In this document: positions 25,925 to 32,187 of the stretch, piece after piece
Layout of the letters: each line of letters begins with the position of its first letter
How positions within the stretch are numbered: position 1 is the first letter of the stretch
From: Paenibacillus sp. cl123
Lineage (GTDB): Bacteria; Bacillota; Bacilli; Paenibacillales; NBRC-103111
Direction: 5' to 3'
Length of the DNA: 64,000 nucleotides
NCBI RefSeq assembly: GCF_900101595.1
Contig: NZ_FMYY01000001.1
Location: 244,735 to 308,734 of the forward strand
Notes under the pieces: generated by a model
Seen by the model: only the letters and a program-made list of their open reading frames with translations
Database searches by the model: none
What the model was told of the DNA's origin: nothing
Position numbers and translations under genes: made by a program

Positions 25925-26362
25925 TTATTTTCGTTTCCTGCTGCTTTTCATCAGCGTCATGCGGCGGGAATGCCGCAGCCAGGAGTAGTAGGTTTTCAAA
26001 TCTCGCAGTTCCATGGACTGCGACATGCAGCCGAGGAAAGTGACGGCAATCAATTTATACAAAGGAGCGCCATATTGCTCCGACTCCTGCTCGGCTGGTA
26101 CGAACTCGACGACCATCAGCAGATCGCCGTCCACGACAAATACGTCTTCTTCGTTGCGGTAATAGGACTCGATCCGGCCGTCTTTGAGCCTGTCCCATAG
26201 AAAGCGGGCTATCTCCGCGGCGCTCCGATGATCTTGAGCGACCCGGGTTTTCCAGCGATCATAGGCGTGGTGGGTAAGAATCAGCTCAATGATTTTCTTA
26301 TCCTCCAACTCTGCAACGTCTCTCTCTCGGGTGTTGATTTCATTCCGGTTGACGTGCTTCAT
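25925..26362 (-). CDS. Conserved hypothetical protein
   Basis: 145 residues, starting MKHVNRNEINTRERD at ATG 26362 with AGGAG 8 nt upstream; a longer in-frame ATG at 26404 has no SD. Visible features are a charged helical N-terminus, HHAYDRWKTRVAQDHRSAAEIARFLWDRL and a beta-rich centre (EEDVFVVDGDLLMVVEFVPAE), ending in a basic SRRMTLMKSSRKRK. The middle resembles proteins annotated only as hypothetical in Bacillales; I cannot name a function. It is 19 bp from the Sda start, so the two probably share a transcript. Confidence 0.7.
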   Translation of the reverse strand: MKHVNRNEINTRERDVAELEDKKIIELILTHHAYDRWKTRVAQDHRSAAEIARFLWDRLKDGRIESYYRNEEDVFVVDGDLLMVVEFVPAEQESEQYGAPLYKLIAVTFLGCMSQSMELRDLKTYYSWLRHSRRMTLMKSSRKRK

Positions 26363-26549
26363 CGCAGGCACTCCTCTCACTAATAAACAGCCCATATTTT
26401 CCATATAATACTATTTATCATAAGCTTAACTGCGCCCGGATGCATCGCATATCTGACCAGAATCCATGCTATTTTTTTTCATCTTGTTGCAAAACATGCA
26501 AACAGGAAGCTGCATCGAAGCAAAACCCCCCAGCTATTTGGCCGCAAAT

Positions 26550-26598
26550 AAAAAGAGATCGCACGATTAGCGGAACGCTAAATATGCAATCTCTTTTT
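26550..26598. terminator. Bidirectional terminator upstream of the comX-like gene's end
   Basis: AAAAAGAGATCGCA and TGCAATCTCTTTTT are complementary with one mismatch, with A- and T-runs on both sides. On the minus strand it lies about 30 nt after the stop of the 66-residue peptide gene. Confidence 0.85.
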
Positions 26599-26628
26599 AA
26601 TCTGGTAAAATCATACTAGGAATTCCGT

Positions 26629-26829
26629 CTAGCCCCAATCGCTTTCGCGATCGGTTAACGCTTTCTTGCCGTCGATGTGAATGCGGGTGAACGTACCGAT
26701 CAGAGCGGAGGACTCTTCTTTCGACAAAGACAGGTCGGCCGGTACACGGTTGGGTTGGCTTGGGGCGCCCTTGCTGTTGAGTTCGTGAACGACGTTGTGC
26801 AATTGCGGATGCAGCTTGATGGTAAGCAT
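26629..26829 (-). CDS. comX: ComX-like pheromone precursor (candidate)
   Basis: 66 residues starting MLTIKLHPQLHN, GGAGTG 9 nt before the ATG. It has no signal peptide. The C-terminal half (ADLSLSKEESSALIGTFTRI then KALTDRESDWG) resembles ComX: an amphipathic helix with an acidic L-x-x-E-E-x-x-A-L-I-x-x-F pattern, followed by a short tail whose only Trp is the penultimate residue. In B. subtilis, ComQ prenylates a Trp near the ComX C-terminus (…RQWGD) and the last residues become the exported pheromone. The gene is divergent from and 85 bp away from comP, in a region that also encodes ComA and ComQ homologues. An isolated small hypothetical protein is the alternative, but the combination is telling. 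Confidence 0.7.
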   Translation of the reverse strand: MLTIKLHPQLHNVVHELNSKGAPSQPNRVPADLSLSKEESSALIGTFTRIHIDGKKALTDRESDWG

Positions 26830-26914
26830 GTTAGATACACTCCATTCTCGGGAAAATGGTACTTCAGTCCTAGTATAGCAAATTGTCCCACAGAAAGGAT
26901 ATGATTTTTGGAGA

Positions 26915-29239
26915 ATGTTGAAAAAAAATATTTGGCCCATATGGATTATGACTATTTTCCTAGTCGCCCAAGCTTGGTGCTCCTTTATCACTTTTCATTA
27001 TCCATATATCGGAATAAGCCTGGAGCAGACGGAAGCCCGGCAGTGGGTGATCAGGGAACTTGAGCAGGAAAACATCAGAGCGCAGCTTGGGCTTAAAGTA
27101 GGGGACATCGTAGTTCTTGTGGATCATCTCCCTCCTGAAGAATCTCCTTCCGTACAGAAATGGAAGATGGTCGAGCAGGCGCGCTCACTGACCGTGATAA
27201 GAGAAGGCGAGCGGATCGACATCTCGATCGACATTCCAAGCACGACCATCGGGGATATGATCCCGATCGTTCAGGAATTGGTCTGTCTCATCATGGCGGC
27301 GCTGCTCTGGTTCAAGGTGCGCCGTTCCAAATCTTCCGTCATGCTGGCGGCCGTCTTCCTGACTATCGCCACCATATACATGAGCTTGGGAGCTTCCGTT
27401 CGAGGCGATGCGGTAGGCAAATTGCTGATCACGGGCTTTATGATGGTGCTTCCTGTCGTCTTTTATCATTTTCTCGTTGTTTTTTTCGAGGAGAAAAGCG
27501 GATTGACGCTGCCCAGCCGCATGCTGAGCTACCTGTATGCATTTGTGGGAGCGGGCCTTGTAGTCCGGCTGCTGTATTTTTATCCACCCATGTCCTTCAC
27601 GGTGTACCAGTACAGTCCTACCATCTCGCTGATTTTCTTCGTCATAGGGTTTGCTTGCATTATGGTTGTGCTCTCCAGGCTGTATGTGCGCAAGAAAAAG
27701 GAAGCGGGTCACGTGATCTCCATCATCACAAGCATATGGGCGGCCTTTTTCATTTCGTTCCTGCCCGTGATCTGCTTCTCCTTTTTGCCCATTATCTTTA
27801 CGGGCCAATCGATTATGGACGCCAGATTCACGAGCGGCTTCATTCTGTTTTTCCCGATCTCATTCGCTTATCTGATTGCTTCGGATCAGCTGTATGATAT
27901 AGGTCTTGTGCTCCGGCGGTTTCTATTCACCTGCTTGCTCGCCGTTGTGCCGGTCGTCGTGTTTACAAGCGTCTACGTCTTCATGTTCCATCGGAATAGC
28001 GACTACAGTCAGATTATTTTCCTGTTCGTGGGCTTGATGATCATGGTGTCGCTGGTGCTGTATGCGGCCGAGCATTGGACGACCCGGTTGGAGCCTTATC
28101 TGTTTCCGAGAAAGTTTATGCTTCAGGCGGCGCTGAAGAAGATTTCAAGAAATCTGGGCAATATTTCGAATTTGCGGGAGCTGCGGGAGCTGATCCTGGT
28201 CGATATCGTCGCTACCTTGCAGGTTTCCGGCAGCGCTATCGTGTTCTGTTACGAGAACGATATGGAGATCGTCCATGAAGGCAAGATAGATCCGGCCGAG
28301 ATTCGGCAGCTCATCCAGTCGTCCTCGCTGCTTCAAAACCGGTATCTTACTTGCATCGAGATGAACCGTCATGAAGCTTATACAAGCTATCTGATCATTA
28401 CGCGCAAGAAGACGAATACGATGCTGGCCAAAGAAGAGCTGCAATGGCTGCACCTCATTACGTCCTATCTCGAGGTCAGTCTGGAGAACGTTCACCTGAT
28501 CCGCAAGCTGACGTTCCGTTTGCAGGAGATGGCCTCACAGCTGCCGCAGGAAAATTCGGCCCGGGATATCCAGTGGTTCCGCAAGGTCATGTTCGATCTG
28601 CAGGAGGAAGAGAGGGTGCGCATCGCTACGGAGCTTCACGATACGACGCTGCAGGATCTGTTTTTTCTTAAACGAAGGCTGACCGGGCTGGCCGACAGCG
28701 CCGCTATGCACAAGGAGGAGCAGGAGCCTTTGCGCGGGATGATCAATTATGTCGAGATGATCAATGAAAGTCTGCGGCAGAGCTGCTTCGAGCTGAATCC
28801 TTATTTGCTCAAAGAAGTAGGGCTGATTAAGACGTTGAACATGTACTTGGAGAAGGAAGCCTATACGACTCCGTTCGAGCTGGAGTTCAAGGTAGAGCCT
28901 GTGCCGGTTATCGAGGAGAACGGCATGGCGACCGAGCGTCATCTGTTCCGGATTGTGCAGGAGCTGCTCAATAACGCGAAGAAGCATTCTCAGGCAACGA
29001 AGGTGAGCTTCCATATCACGGAAGCCGACGGGCGGCTGCGGCTGGTTTACGAGGATGACGGAGTGGGCTTTGACGAGCAGGAGGAGGTCCGTCTGCAGAT
29101 CGGAGCCTCCGGTCTCGGGCTGGAGCAGATGAGGACCAGAGTTTTGCAAATGGGCGGGGAAATCGAATATATCACGCAAAAAGGAAAGGGAACAAAGGTA
29201 GTCATCATGGTGCCGACTGAGAGGGGAAAACAAAAATGA
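26915..29239 (+). CDS. comP: ComP-like membrane sensor histidine kinase
   Basis: 774 residues, close to B. subtilis ComP (769). An N-terminal membrane segment is followed by a PDZ-like extracytoplasmic loop (LKVGDIVVLVDHLPPEE, VIREGERIDISI), then about eight membrane segments to residue 375, a linker and a HisKA_3/HATPase_c kinase. The H-box EEERVRIATELHDTTLQDLF puts the phospho-acceptor at His575; the ATP site has RIVQELLNNAKKHSQATKV and DGVGFDE. The start is ATG 26915, with GGAG almost touching it; a TTG at 26918 is an alternative, and a 6-codon frame (ATG 26901 to TGA 26921) overlaps it. It should bind the pheromone outside and phosphorylate the ComA-like regulator it overlaps by 4 nt. Confidence 0.88.
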   Translation: MLKKNIWPIWIMTIFLVAQAWCSFITFHYPYIGISLEQTEARQWVIRELEQENIRAQLGLKVGDIVVLVDHLPPEESPSVQKWKMVEQARSLTVIREGERIDISIDIPSTTIGDMIPIVQELVCLIMAALLWFKVRRSKSSVMLAAVFLTIATIYMSLGASVRGDAVGKLLITGFMMVLPVVFYHFLVVFFEEKSGLTLPSRMLSYLYAFVGAGLVVRLLYFYPPMSFTVYQYSPTISLIFFVIGFACIMVVLSRLYVRKKKEAGHVISIITSIWAAFFISFLPVICFSFLPIIFTGQSIMDARFTSGFILFFPISFAYLIASDQLYDIGLVLRRFLFTCLLAVVPVVVFTSVYVFMFHRNSDYSQIIFLFVGLMIMVSLVLYAAEHWTTRLEPYLFPRKFMLQAALKKISRNLGNISNLRELRELILVDIVATLQVSGSAIVFCYENDMEIVHEGKIDPAEIRQLIQSSSLLQNRYLTCIEMNRHEAYTSYLIITRKKTNTMLAKEELQWLHLITSYLEVSLENVHLIRKLTFRLQEMASQLPQENSARDIQWFRKVMFDLQEEERVRIATELHDTTLQDLFFLKRRLTGLADSAAMHKEEQEPLRGMINYVEMINESLRQSCFELNPYLLKEVGLIKTLNMYLEKEAYTTPFELEFKVEPVPVIEENGMATERHLFRIVQELLNNAKKHSQATKVSFHITEADGRLRLVYEDDGVGFDEQEEVRLQIGASGLGLEQMRTRVLQMGGEIEYITQKGKGTKVVIMVPTERGKQK

Positions 29240-29880
29240 GCGAAATGATTAAAGCTCTGGTGGTCGACGATCATCCGCTGGTCGCCAATGCAACCAAGAC
29301 GCTGCTGGAGGATATGGGCCATATTAAGGTGATCGGGACCGTTCCGACGGCAAGACAGTGCATGGAGCAGGCTTCCTTGTATCAGCCGGATCTGGTGTTC
29401 CTGGACTATCATTTGCCGGATCAGCCCGGCACGGAGGTGGCCGCCTGGCTCAAAAGCAGGTACCCGGCCATTCATATCGTTATTTTTACCGGAGTGGAGC
29501 TGACGGGGATTCTCGACAAGCTTATCGAGATCCGTGTCAGCGGCGTGCTCTCGAAGGAGTCGGGCGAGCACACGATTAGGAATATGGTCAGCTGTATATT
29601 GGACGGGCATACGATGCTGCCTTTATCGATCTATCACCGGATGCAGATGAACAGTGGGTATGCTCCTGAGGACGAACGTCTGGAAGAGGAAGAAATACTC
29701 ATGATGAACCTGATGGTGAAAGGCGCTACGCACGAGCAGATAGCGGCCCGCATTCATATGAGCAAGCGCACGGTCGATAACTATTTACGGAAAATATACG
29801 CCAAGCTTGGCGTCAAGTCCAGGGTGGAAGCGCTGGAGAAGTTTATTACGAGTAAATATTATACGCAGGATGAGGTGTAG
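29236..29880 (+). CDS. comA: ComA-like response regulator (REC + LuxR HTH)
   Basis: 214 residues, the same length as B. subtilis ComA. The receiver domain has LVVDDHPLVANATKTLLED and the phospho-acceptor Asp57 in DLVFLDYHLPDQPG, with Thr and Lys conserved (IFTGV, LSKESG). The LuxR/NarL-type HTH is clear (LMVKGATHEQIAARIHMSKRTVDNYLRKIYAKLGVKSR). It overlaps comP by 4 nt and precedes comQ by 2 nt, so all three are co-translated. It should activate target promoters when phosphorylated by the ComP-like kinase. No srfA-type target is in the window. Confidence 0.9.
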   Translation: MSEMIKALVVDDHPLVANATKTLLEDMGHIKVIGTVPTARQCMEQASLYQPDLVFLDYHLPDQPGTEVAAWLKSRYPAIHIVIFTGVELTGILDKLIEIRVSGVLSKESGEHTIRNMVSCILDGHTMLPLSIYHRMQMNSGYAPEDERLEEEEILMMNLMVKGATHEQIAARIHMSKRTVDNYLRKIYAKLGVKSRVEALEKFITSKYYTQDEV

Positions 29881-29882
29881 GG

Positions 29883-30824
29883 ATGAACCCGGATATCCGG
29901 CGGCAGATGTGCCGCATTGTGGACGACTATATAACAGTGGAGGAGCTCGGCGCGCTTCTGAAAGCTTTCATCGCGGACAAGGCGCTGGAATACGGGACAT
30001 GGTCCGACATGACGATCTGCACGCACTATATGCTGGGCGGCTCATCGCCTCATATTGAACGGCTGGCCGCGGTAACGGAGCTGATCGTGCTGACCCTGGA
30101 CATCGTGGACGATCTCCAGGACCAGGACCAGGGGGGCAAGCCCTGGATGCAGTGCCCGCAGGCGGTTGCGCTTAATGCGGTGCTTGCCTTGCTTCTGGGA
30201 GCCATAGGCGAGTTGGGAAGGCTGCAGGTCAGGCCCGAGGCGCTGACGGAGCTGGCCCTTCTGCTGACCCGGTCCGTGAACGGCCAGCAGAAGGATGTGA
30301 GCGGAGCGCTGACGACGCCGGATGATTATATCGCCATGACGCAGGAGAAATCCGGCTCCTTGTTCCGGCTCGCCTGCTTTATGGGCCATTCCGCCTTGAA
30401 TGCCGCGCCCGCCACGATCGAGCGGCTTCATCAGCTGGCTGACTGCGCCGGTCTTATCCACCAGATCCAGAACGATATGAGAGACCTGATCAGCTTCGAT
30501 ATCAAAAGCGATCTGCTCGGCAGGAAGCGTACGCTGCCCGTGCTGTATTTGCTTCAGGTGGAGGAGGAGGCTTTCCGGCCGTTCAAGGATTATTATGAAG
30601 GCCGTCTTGACGCAGACTGGCTGCTGGCGCATAAGGAGGAACTGGTGCATACGATCCGGCATTCGGGATGCATTGAATATGCGGGGGTCGTCCAGTCCAT
30701 ATGCGTGCAGAAGGCGCAGGAGATTTATGCGGGTATAGAAGCGGCATCTCCGTGGAAAGAGAAGCTGAAGGCCGCGATGCTCGGCTCGTTCCTGGATGAG
30801 GAGCAGGCTGAAAGCACCGCCTGA
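29883..30824 (+). CDS. comQ: ComQ-like isoprenyl transferase
   Basis: 313 residues of the polyprenyl synthase fold. The first Asp-rich motif is DIVDDLQDQDQ (Asp76, Asp77, Asp80), required for binding the isoprenyl diphosphate; a second, less regular, acidic region is QIQNDMRDLISFD. The protein lacks the length and other blocks expected of a chain-elongating synthase such as IspA, and the locus contains ComP, ComA and a Trp-tailed peptide. ComQ modifies the ComX Trp with a geranyl or farnesyl group and is required for pheromone production. The C-terminal end runs into a tandem-repeat region. The alternative, a quinone or terpenoid prenyl synthase, is less likely in this context. Confidence 0.82.
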   Translation: MNPDIRRQMCRIVDDYITVEELGALLKAFIADKALEYGTWSDMTICTHYMLGGSSPHIERLAAVTELIVLTLDIVDDLQDQDQGGKPWMQCPQAVALNAVLALLLGAIGELGRLQVRPEALTELALLLTRSVNGQQKDVSGALTTPDDYIAMTQEKSGSLFRLACFMGHSALNAAPATIERLHQLADCAGLIHQIQNDMRDLISFDIKSDLLGRKRTLPVLYLLQVEEEAFRPFKDYYEGRLDADWLLAHKEELVHTIRHSGCIEYAGVVQSICVQKAQEIYAGIEAASPWKEKLKAAMLGSFLDEEQAESTA

Positions 30825-30838
30825 AGAATATGTAAAGC

Positions 30839-30971
30839 CAGAAGAACAGCCAGAAGAACAGCCGGAAGAACAGCCAGAAGCACAAGGACACCCAGAAGCG
30901 CAAGAAAAGCTAAAAGCACAAGTAACAACCGGAAGGATACCCAGAAGCACAAGGACACCCAGAAGCGCAAG
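30839..30971 (+). repeat. Tandem repeats after comQ
   Basis: CCAGAAGAACAG-type 12-bp units repeat at 30839-30873. A 31-bp block (CCAGAAGCACAAGGACACCC and 11 more bases) occurs exactly at 30874-30904 and 30941-30971. In one frame the region encodes PEEQPEEQPEEQPEAQGHPEAQ. That frame opens at ATG 30796 inside comQ (59 codons to 30975) but has no SD. The comQ frame ends at 30824, so a frameshift could have detached a Gln/Glu/Pro tail. Confidence 0.7.
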
Positions 30972-31070: not shown

Positions 31071-32150
31071 TTATTTAAACAGCTTCTTGAGGTTTTCCTT
31101 GTAAGGTCCGCGGATGACGCCCTTCTCCGTTATGATCGCGGTGACGTATTCATTGGGCGTGACATCGAAGGCCGGGTTGTATACCTTCACGCCAGCCGGC
31201 GCGGTGCGTTTGCCGAAGCCTTGGGTGATCTCGTCCTCATGCCGCTCCTCGATAGGAATATCGGCACCTGTCGGCGTATTCAGATCGATCGTGGACATCG
31301 GGCAAGCGACATAAAACGGAATGCCGTGCGCCTTGGCCAGCACCGCTACGCTGTAGGTGCCGATCTTGTTGGCGACGTCGCCGTTGGCGGCCACGCGGTC
31401 GGTGCCGACGATGACGGCCTGCACCCAGCCCTTGGCCATCACGGCGCCCGCCATATTATCGCAGATCAGCGTCACATCGACCCCGGCCTGCTGCAATTCA
31501 AAGGCCGTCAGCCGCGCGCCCTGCAGCACAGGACGGGTCTCATCCGCGAATACCTTAAGCGCGATGCCCTTCTCCTGAGCCAGATACATCGGCGCCAGCG
31601 CGGTGCCGTAACGGGCCGTTGCCAGTCCTCCCGCATTGCAATGGGTCAATACGCCCATCCCGTCGCGGAACAGAGAGAGCGCATGCTCGCCGATCAGCCG
31701 GCATGTTTCCTCATCTTCCGACTGGATGGCGATCGCTTCATCCAGCAGCGCGCGCTGAGCGGCTGCGGGCTCAGCCGCGCCGTCGCCGGTCAGCAGCGCC
31801 GCAGCCCGCGCCCGCATCCGGTCGAGCGCCCAGAACAGATTGACCGCCGTCGGGCGGCTGGTCGCCAGATAGTCGCATTGGCGGTTCACTTCCGCCAGCA
31901 GTTCGTCCCGTCCGCCCCGCACCTCGCGGATGCCGAGATAGACGCCGAAGGCGGCGGCGATGCCGATGGCCGGGGCGCCGCGTACGGCGAGCTGCTTGAT
32001 GGCATCCCACACCTGCTCGGCGGTTGTCAATTCCAAATATACGATTTCATCGGGAAGCAGCCGTTGATCCAGCAGATCCAGCCGGTCCCCCAGCGAGTTC
32101 CAGCGTACCGATTGAAGCCAGTCGGCCGCCGGAGCTTGTCCGTTCGTCAT
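31071..32150 (-). CDS. mtnA: Methylthioribose-1-phosphate isomerase
   Basis: 359 residues. It converts 5-methylthioribose-1-phosphate to methylthioribulose-1-phosphate in methionine salvage. It belongs to the eIF2B-like family. Motifs are [53 protein letters not shown] (catalytic Cys), [48 protein letters not shown] (Asp) and [21 protein letters not shown] lies 9 nt before the ATG at 32150; an earlier ATG touches the SD. It follows mtnK with a 37-bp gap. Confidence 0.96.
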
Positions 32151-32187
32151 AGCACTCATCTCCTCGCGTTATGCTTGTTGTCTCTCG

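Follow-up and report, generated by a model that had tools for sequence, protein, structure and literature searches.

Quorum-sensing systems of the ComQXPA type, known from Bacillus and other Firmicutes, consist in their canonical form of four genes lying side by side on the same strand and ordered comQ-comX-comP-comA (census PMC4008528). According to the census, ComX precursors measure 52-73 residues and carry a tryptophan (Trp) within the C-terminal 5-10 residues. A review states that Trp-prenylating ComQ enzymes need NDxxx or GDxxx at the second motif (PMC5331326). Irregular loci are also listed in the census: a hypothetical comX on the opposite strand, between comQ and comP, in three B. cereus strains and L. 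fusiformis ZC1, and unusual com-like loci in P. curdlanolyticus (canonical order) and B. coagulans. For Paenibacillus, a 2025 paper places ComX (PF05952) near lanthipeptide clusters in one Paenibacillus sp., and a paper on P. polymyxa reports the B. subtilis com genes as lacking in eight strains. We analyzed a stretch of 64,000 nucleotides from Paenibacillus sp. cl123 (contig NZ_FMYY01000001.1, positions 244,735 to 308,734; hereafter the window), in which a comX-like gene on the minus strand is followed by comP, comA and comQ on the plus strand. With a probability of roughly 85%, judged mainly from sequence comparison, this locus represents a rearranged ComQXPA-type peptide quorum-sensing module.

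The locus shares with the ComQXPA systems of Bacillus and other Firmicutes the same four protein families, the Trp near the precursor C-terminus, the DDxxD and ND motifs of ComQ and the high variability of ComX, which exceeds that of the other components. Unlike canonical systems, it has comX divergent and comQ last, comX-comP at times stands alone in relatives, and ComQ seems uncoupled from the signal among close relatives. With comX divergent and comQ last, the window locus departs from the canonical arrangement, and we filed it as a variant. It resembles the irregular census loci in that a reversed hypothetical comX was listed for four strains and a com-like locus for one Paenibacillus; it is unlike those of B. 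cereus, L. fusiformis ZC1 and P. curdlanolyticus in that their comQ is not the last gene. No description of this gene order was found in a search of an open-access library, which leaves out most subscription papers, and passages of PMC8895600 and PMC10931772 add nothing on gene order.

All four open reading frames (ORFs) lie where a first-pass annotation of the window had placed them, with the sizes it gave, a 4-nt overlap of comP and comA and a 2-nt gap between comA and comQ (Table 1). Pfam identifies HisKA_3 and HATPase_c in ComP, Response_reg and GerE in ComA and polyprenyl_synt in ComQ. The annotation's description of a 214-residue ComA-like regulator holds in length and domains, and its ComQ-like prenyl transferase with a DDxxD motif indeed carries DDLQD, together with NDMRD as a pseudo-form of the second aspartate-rich motif (SARM). 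Its estimate of about eight membrane segments for ComP needs correction, as a structural model gives ten long helices. The peptide, by contrast with these three products, had no match with the Pfam ComX model and was recognized in profile-profile comparison.

To place the arrangement among relatives, we scanned named genomes with a ComQ alignment and took the best 80 of 226 loci encoding a relative; these loci and those of the other genomes examined come partly from the same contigs. The 80 loci belong to Paenibacillus, Cohnella, Chengkuizengella and some metagenome-assembled genomes (MAGs). The order comP-comA-comQ is kept in 70 of them; two have comA followed by comQ, their comP being located elsewhere or beyond the contig (L107, L136), and one is canonical (L148). 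The layout with divergent comX and comQ last is common to many related species. One further locus copy (L066, genome G012) is degenerate, its comP, comA and comQ being split over several frames while the comX-like ORF is still open.

A Trp-tailed peptide gene accompanies every testable locus. In each of the 71 testable loci (the window and 70 of the 80, the other ten having no comP start or not the 450 nt before comP), comP is accompanied by a divergent ORF of 38-74 codons, which begins 56-140 nt away from it and carries a Trp among its last four residues, second from the end in 54 peptides, last in 15 and third from the end in 2. When 4000 positions were drawn at random from these loci, 110 satisfied the same definition (2.75%; a control that ignores shared ancestry). 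Among 60 genomes, the source genome included, 28 have a strong ComQ match (at least 125 bits); peptide family and strong ComQ occur together in 23 and are both missing in 31, with one genome holding only the peptide and five only ComQ (Fisher-tested, ancestry ignored). The first-pass annotation had proposed a ComQXPA-type module of altered gene order, had read the short divergent peptide with its C-terminal Trp as ComX, and had named as contrary evidence a lack of any profile or co-conservation signal, or comP-comA-comQ relatives without a Trp-tailed peptide; gene order, peptide and co-occurrence all bear out its proposal.

The window peptide, beginning with MLTIKL and bearing its Trp as the penultimate residue, fits the limits for ComX precursors in length and Trp position. 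Its family is highly divergent, with identity to the window peptide falling to 13% (29 peptides aligned), and the ratio of nonsynonymous to synonymous substitution rates (dN/dS) is 0.05-0.58 in 13 of 14 close pairs, the 13 for which it could be computed. We compared a profile of 66 window-type peptides (five truncated ones dropped) with one of 26 canonical ComX precursors using hhalign. The precursors were read from the loci of a class-wide Pfam ComX search of 398 genomes. A match was found in 26 genomes and passed the cut-off in 22, so that a few precursors come from matches below it. The two profiles align with a probability of 94% and a score of 36.1 (best of 40 column shuffles: 12.2), and when the last 12 residues were cut from both sides the score was still 30.7 (shuffle best 10.8). 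Both groups share the core LSxxExxAxxxxF, and the peptide of one relative (L127) matches the canonical ComX profile directly (E 2e-3). Because the family profile matches canonical ComX, the window peptide is, as judged by these alignments, a homologue of ComX that has diverged too far for the Pfam model to recognize it. A Pfam ComX search of the source genome likewise gave no match, a result of little weight, as 14 control genomes gave none either.

ComQ was examined in the same manner. DDxxD is present in all 108 rows of the ComQ alignment and the ND of the pseudo-SARM in 107 (L107 has SD). In a tree of these rows, all 82 labelled as rearranged, a loose label that takes in loci without comA, fall into one group of 85 (SH-aLRT 98), which is completed by two rows with comQ alone and by L148, its sole row of canonical order; the long-branched canonical row L178 adjoins the group with weak support, and the root of the tree was not inferred. 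By this tree the window-type ComQs are one group apart from nearly all canonical ComQs. The profile of the group nevertheless recognizes canonical ComQs, with scores of up to 341 bits, and the ComQ profile finds ComQ in 20 of 30 canonical ComX loci, whose stretches reach at most 1.5 kb to each side. In the separate ComQ search of the 60 genomes, other matches score at most 59 bits (an extra piece of the broken G012 copy) and the relatives' other prenyl synthases at most 32 bits. Since Pfam names the protein only polyprenyl_synt, comQ could be read as an ordinary polyprenyl diphosphate synthase of isoprenoid metabolism next to an unrelated small ORF; the near-universal ND motif, the high scores of canonical ComQs with its profile against the low ones of the relatives' other prenyl synthases, and the Trp-tailed peptide in every testable locus make this highly improbable.

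Paenibacillus alvei encodes another Trp-prenylating cluster with a kinase, PalXQP, whose peptide has an NHLP leader and whose enzyme has conserved SARM aspartates (PMC10853753). The window locus resembles it in combining a kinase, a peptide with a C-terminal Trp and a Trp prenyltransferase of the isoprene synthase superfamily, and the report of such a cluster from this very genus raises the question of whether the locus is a cluster for a ribosomally synthesized and post-translationally modified peptide (RiPP) of the PalXQP type, with kinase, NHLP-leader peptide and PalQ, rather than a relative of ComX. However, PalXQP has no response regulator among its three genes, the window peptide has no match in NCBIfam, NHLP included, at E<=1, and the window ComQ carries a pseudo-SARM in place of an intact second motif. 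Moreover, the source genome has a separate PalXQP-like locus (L261; contig C36, 5355-8848) with a HisKA kinase and a peptide that ends in Trp and matches NHLP at 1.6e-18. Its enzyme, with the motifs DDLID and DDWSD, has no Pfam or NCBIfam match, and enzyme and peptide score at background with the ComQ and ComX-like profiles (BLASTP of window ComQ against this enzyme: E 0.62). In the order, 204 of 296 genomes carry NHLP family matches; the P. alvei PalX core, sought as an exact sequence in 104 genomes of the family, is present in none of them. With L261 as the PalXQP-type locus used for comparison, we consider a PalXQP-type identity of the window locus very remote.

For the receptor, an AlphaFold2 model of ComP residues 1-400 (mean predicted local distance difference test score 88) shows ten long helices, the first two of which are separated by a beta-rich segment (residues 34-104). 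ComP of B. amyloliquefaciens is described with ten helices and a PDZ-like loop at 30-108 (PMC9620489); the window model agrees in helix number and has, at the corresponding position, the elements to be expected of such a loop. The segment is probably a PDZ-like loop. Weak Foldseek matches of this half of ComP include the PDZ-bearing proteases AlgW, DegS and CtpA as well as an isolated PDZ domain; the top matches, eukaryotic membrane receptors at E about 0.01, were judged meaningless.

In order to see where variation sits, we compared close relatives at 55 loci, after 11 had been dropped for truncated, broken or multi-copy genes along with others that lacked some of the genes or had a short comP. 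In eight relatives around P. tyrfis and P. elgii, mean identities at the main locus are 59% for the peptide (X), 74% for the sensor half of ComP, 96% for its kinase half, 97% for ComA and 95% for ComQ. The identity of X correlates with that of the sensor half at a Spearman coefficient of 0.88, compared with 0.47 for ComA and 0.38 for ComQ (pairs not independent). Conservation is higher for ComQ than for the sensor half in 26 of the 28 pairs of this group and in 19 of 30 other close pairs; 10 of the 11 exceptions among the latter have X at 79% identity or higher, and the other is the window with L069. Within L096, L098, L099 and L100, ComQ stays at 90-95% identity whether X is 100% or 64% identical, while the sensor half drops from 94-98% to 72-74%. 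Because ComQ identity is steady while X and the sensor half vary, ComQ looks, from these alignments, largely uncoupled from signal type in close relatives. Diversity values in the census are 0.46 for ComQ and 0.29 for ComP in the B. subtilis clade, and 0.60 and 0.64, respectively, in the other clade tabulated (PMC4008528).

The comX-comP pair also occurs apart from the other two genes. The peptide profile matches 24 of the 60 genomes, 11 of which carry two or three copies; the source genome has one X and one full-length ComP match. Among 16 second regions, that is, copies not adjoining a ComQ gene, 14 consist of X divergent from comP with no comA or comQ match in the stretch; L224 has comA beside comP, and the contig of L226 ends too early. 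Three of the 16 belong to G036, a fragmented MAG, and may therefore be parts of main loci. There are also tandem forms, with three X and two comP in L097 and two X-comP pairs in L112, each with one comA and one comQ. Three tandem comP with one comX, one comA and one comQ were seen in L144 (the contig of L059), L053, L055 and L062, from Chengkuizengella and kin. When the second cassette was compared across eight genomes, pairs were on average 45% identical in X, 72% in the sensor half, 96% in the kinase half and 95% in a neighbouring gene, and X and sensor half correlate at 0.49 (pairs not independent). By sequence, comX-comP is a divergent signal-receptor cassette able to duplicate apart from comA and comQ, and therefore some relatives probably run more than two such pairs or copies of it with a single ComQ and a single ComA, that is, several pairs share them.

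These patterns also bear on the role of the product. A peptide, a modifying enzyme and a kinase are what the sequence fixes, and the same genes could make an antimicrobial or other exported peptide whose production ComP-ComA merely regulates, with no population signal. Yet X and the ComP sensor half vary together at the main and the second locus, and 14 of the 16 second regions retain the pair with neither comA nor comQ close by. Because co-variation and standalone pairs are expected of a ligand and its receptor, we favour a signal and its receptor and consider the antimicrobial alternative improbable.

Several observations weigh against a ComQXPA-type module or parts of it. Pfam, PF05952 included, gives no match at E<=1 for the 66-residue ORF, and PF05952 matches one of 29 family members, weakly (E 0.0025). 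Five of the 80 loci have comP-comQ without comA between them (L076, L079, L092, L102, L108), two have comQ alone with neither comP nor comA nearby (L120, L146), and the single peptide-only genome (G007, 85% complete) lacks a strong ComQ match although it has comX-comP. The ComP loop is weak by sequence, with a PDZ_2 match at E 0.009 that falls below the Pfam cut-off, and Foldseek found no match for this half of ComP at E<=0.001. Finally, the window and L069 share 48% of X, 72% of the sensor half and 69% of ComQ, so that here ComQ is not the more conserved.

The intergenic regions were examined at 69 distinct loci (the 71 minus two with duplicate peptides). An extended -10 element in the comX direction lies in the comX-comP gap at 56 of 69 loci (shuffles: mean 5.1, maximum 11). 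In the comP direction the gap holds such an element at background frequency (3/69; shuffles mean 3.7, maximum 10), but it is found beyond the comX stop at 47/69 loci (shuffles mean 4.5, maximum 13; opposite direction 3/69). The element is present as well in 12 of the 16 second regions and in L107, is missing from the canonical-order L148, L064 and L065 and from the three extra copies of L097 and L112, and occurs in 3 of 26 canonical comX loci versus 47 of 69 (Fisher 6e-7, ancestry ignored). The first-pass annotation had expected separate control of signal and receiver; distinct promoters are indeed predicted, but the transcripts would overlap, because the comP-direction element, if it is the comP promoter, sits beyond the comX stop and the comP leader would be antisense to all of comX. 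In Streptomyces coelicolor, the scbA-scbR butyrolactone switch is likewise described as a signalling gene pair whose genes are transcribed convergently, with antisense RNA (PMC3134472); the proteins are unrelated and the overlap in the window is a prediction.

Concerning control alone, it is about an even bet that comP instead uses an ordinary promoter in the gap and that the conserved element belongs to the 3' end of comX or is bound by a protein. A scan of 26400-27000 for sigma-70 consensus promoters reported no promoter and no -35 hexamer, 22 of the 69 loci lack the comP-direction element beyond the comX stop, and the element abuts a conserved hairpin, all of which speak for this alternative; the variable positions of the element, on the other hand, are largely those that an extended -10 tolerates, the gap rarely contains a comP-direction element, and the element is common in second regions and at background in canonical comX loci. 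The hairpin, directly 3' of comX, is probably a terminator, and similar ones were found in relatives' stretches downstream of comX, among those listed; a consensus terminator scan of 26400-27000 did not report it. Its sequence is not a dispersed repeat, as it matches once each in window and genome when up to 3 mismatches are allowed. Among the comX-comP gaps listed, no palindrome was seen by eye; the enriched words are A+T-rich, the longest lying around the -10 elements.

Table 1. Features of the comX-comP-comA-comQ locus in window coordinates.
Feature	Position	Strand	Basis
Hairpin directly 3' of comX, probable terminator	26549..26599	-	Fold of 26540-26640: -34.3 kcal/mol, z -4.2
Predicted extended -10 in comP direction, TGGTAAAAT, beyond comX stop	26603..26611	+	Sequence match
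Predicted comP leader, about 297 nt, antisense to all of comX	26618..26914	+	Start inferred from -10 element
comX-like precursor peptide gene, 66 aa, end ...DRESDWG	26629..26829	-	ORF; Trp-tailed divergent ORF in 71/71 testable loci; profile match to canonical ComX
Predicted extended -10 of comX, TGCTATACT on minus strand	26872..26880	-	Sequence match; in comX-comP gap
comP-like receptor histidine kinase, 774 aa	26915..29239	+	HisKA_3, HATPase_c (Pfam); ten long helices in model of residues 1-400
Probable PDZ-like loop of ComP, residues 34-104	27014..27226	+	Strand/helix pattern of model; PDZ_2 below cut-off; weak Foldseek matches
comA-like response regulator, 214 aa	29236..29880	+	Response_reg, GerE (Pfam)
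comQ-like prenyltransferase, 313 aa	29883..30824	+	polyprenyl_synt (Pfam); ComQ tree
First Asp-rich motif DDLQD of ComQ	30108..30122	+	DDxxD in 108/108 ComQ rows
Pseudo-SARM NDMRD of ComQ	30471..30485	+	ND in 107/108 ComQ rows

Directly past the comQ stop lie short tandem repeats with units of 12 and 18 bases (30836-30971), followed on the opposite strand by a gene for S-methyl-5-thioribose-1-phosphate isomerase (31071-32159). On the other side, the comX neighbour (25925-26404, minus strand) encodes a 159-residue protein with a DUF6895 match below the cut-off; an ORF with a similar end occupies the same place in L036.

Our analysis directly supports the presence and homology of the genes as well as their conserved order and co-occurrence. 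In a ComQXPA-type module built from these genes, ComQ would modify the ComX-like precursor with an isoprenyl group at the Trp close to its C-terminus, and the modified tail would be cut off and leave the cell. ComP would sense the modified peptide outside the membrane and phosphorylate ComA, which would then change transcription of its targets. A further proposal, doubtful at present, is that transcription of the receptor begins past the comX stop and crosses comX in the antisense direction, so that sending and listening restrain each other, and that cassettes for new signals copy around the genome and share one ComQ and one ComA, giving some species several ComX-type channels per cell.

With these loci, the range of ComX-type signalling would take in many species across Paenibacillus, Cohnella and Chengkuizengella, in which the Pfam ComX model largely misses the peptide. 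As comQ lies outside the signal-receptor block and standalone pairs occur, the origin of new signal types may be studied here without a co-evolving modifying enzyme, and the close relatives examined offer a natural comparison in which ComQ seems to change largely independently of signal type. The predicted antisense overlap between the signal gene and the receptor leader is directly testable.

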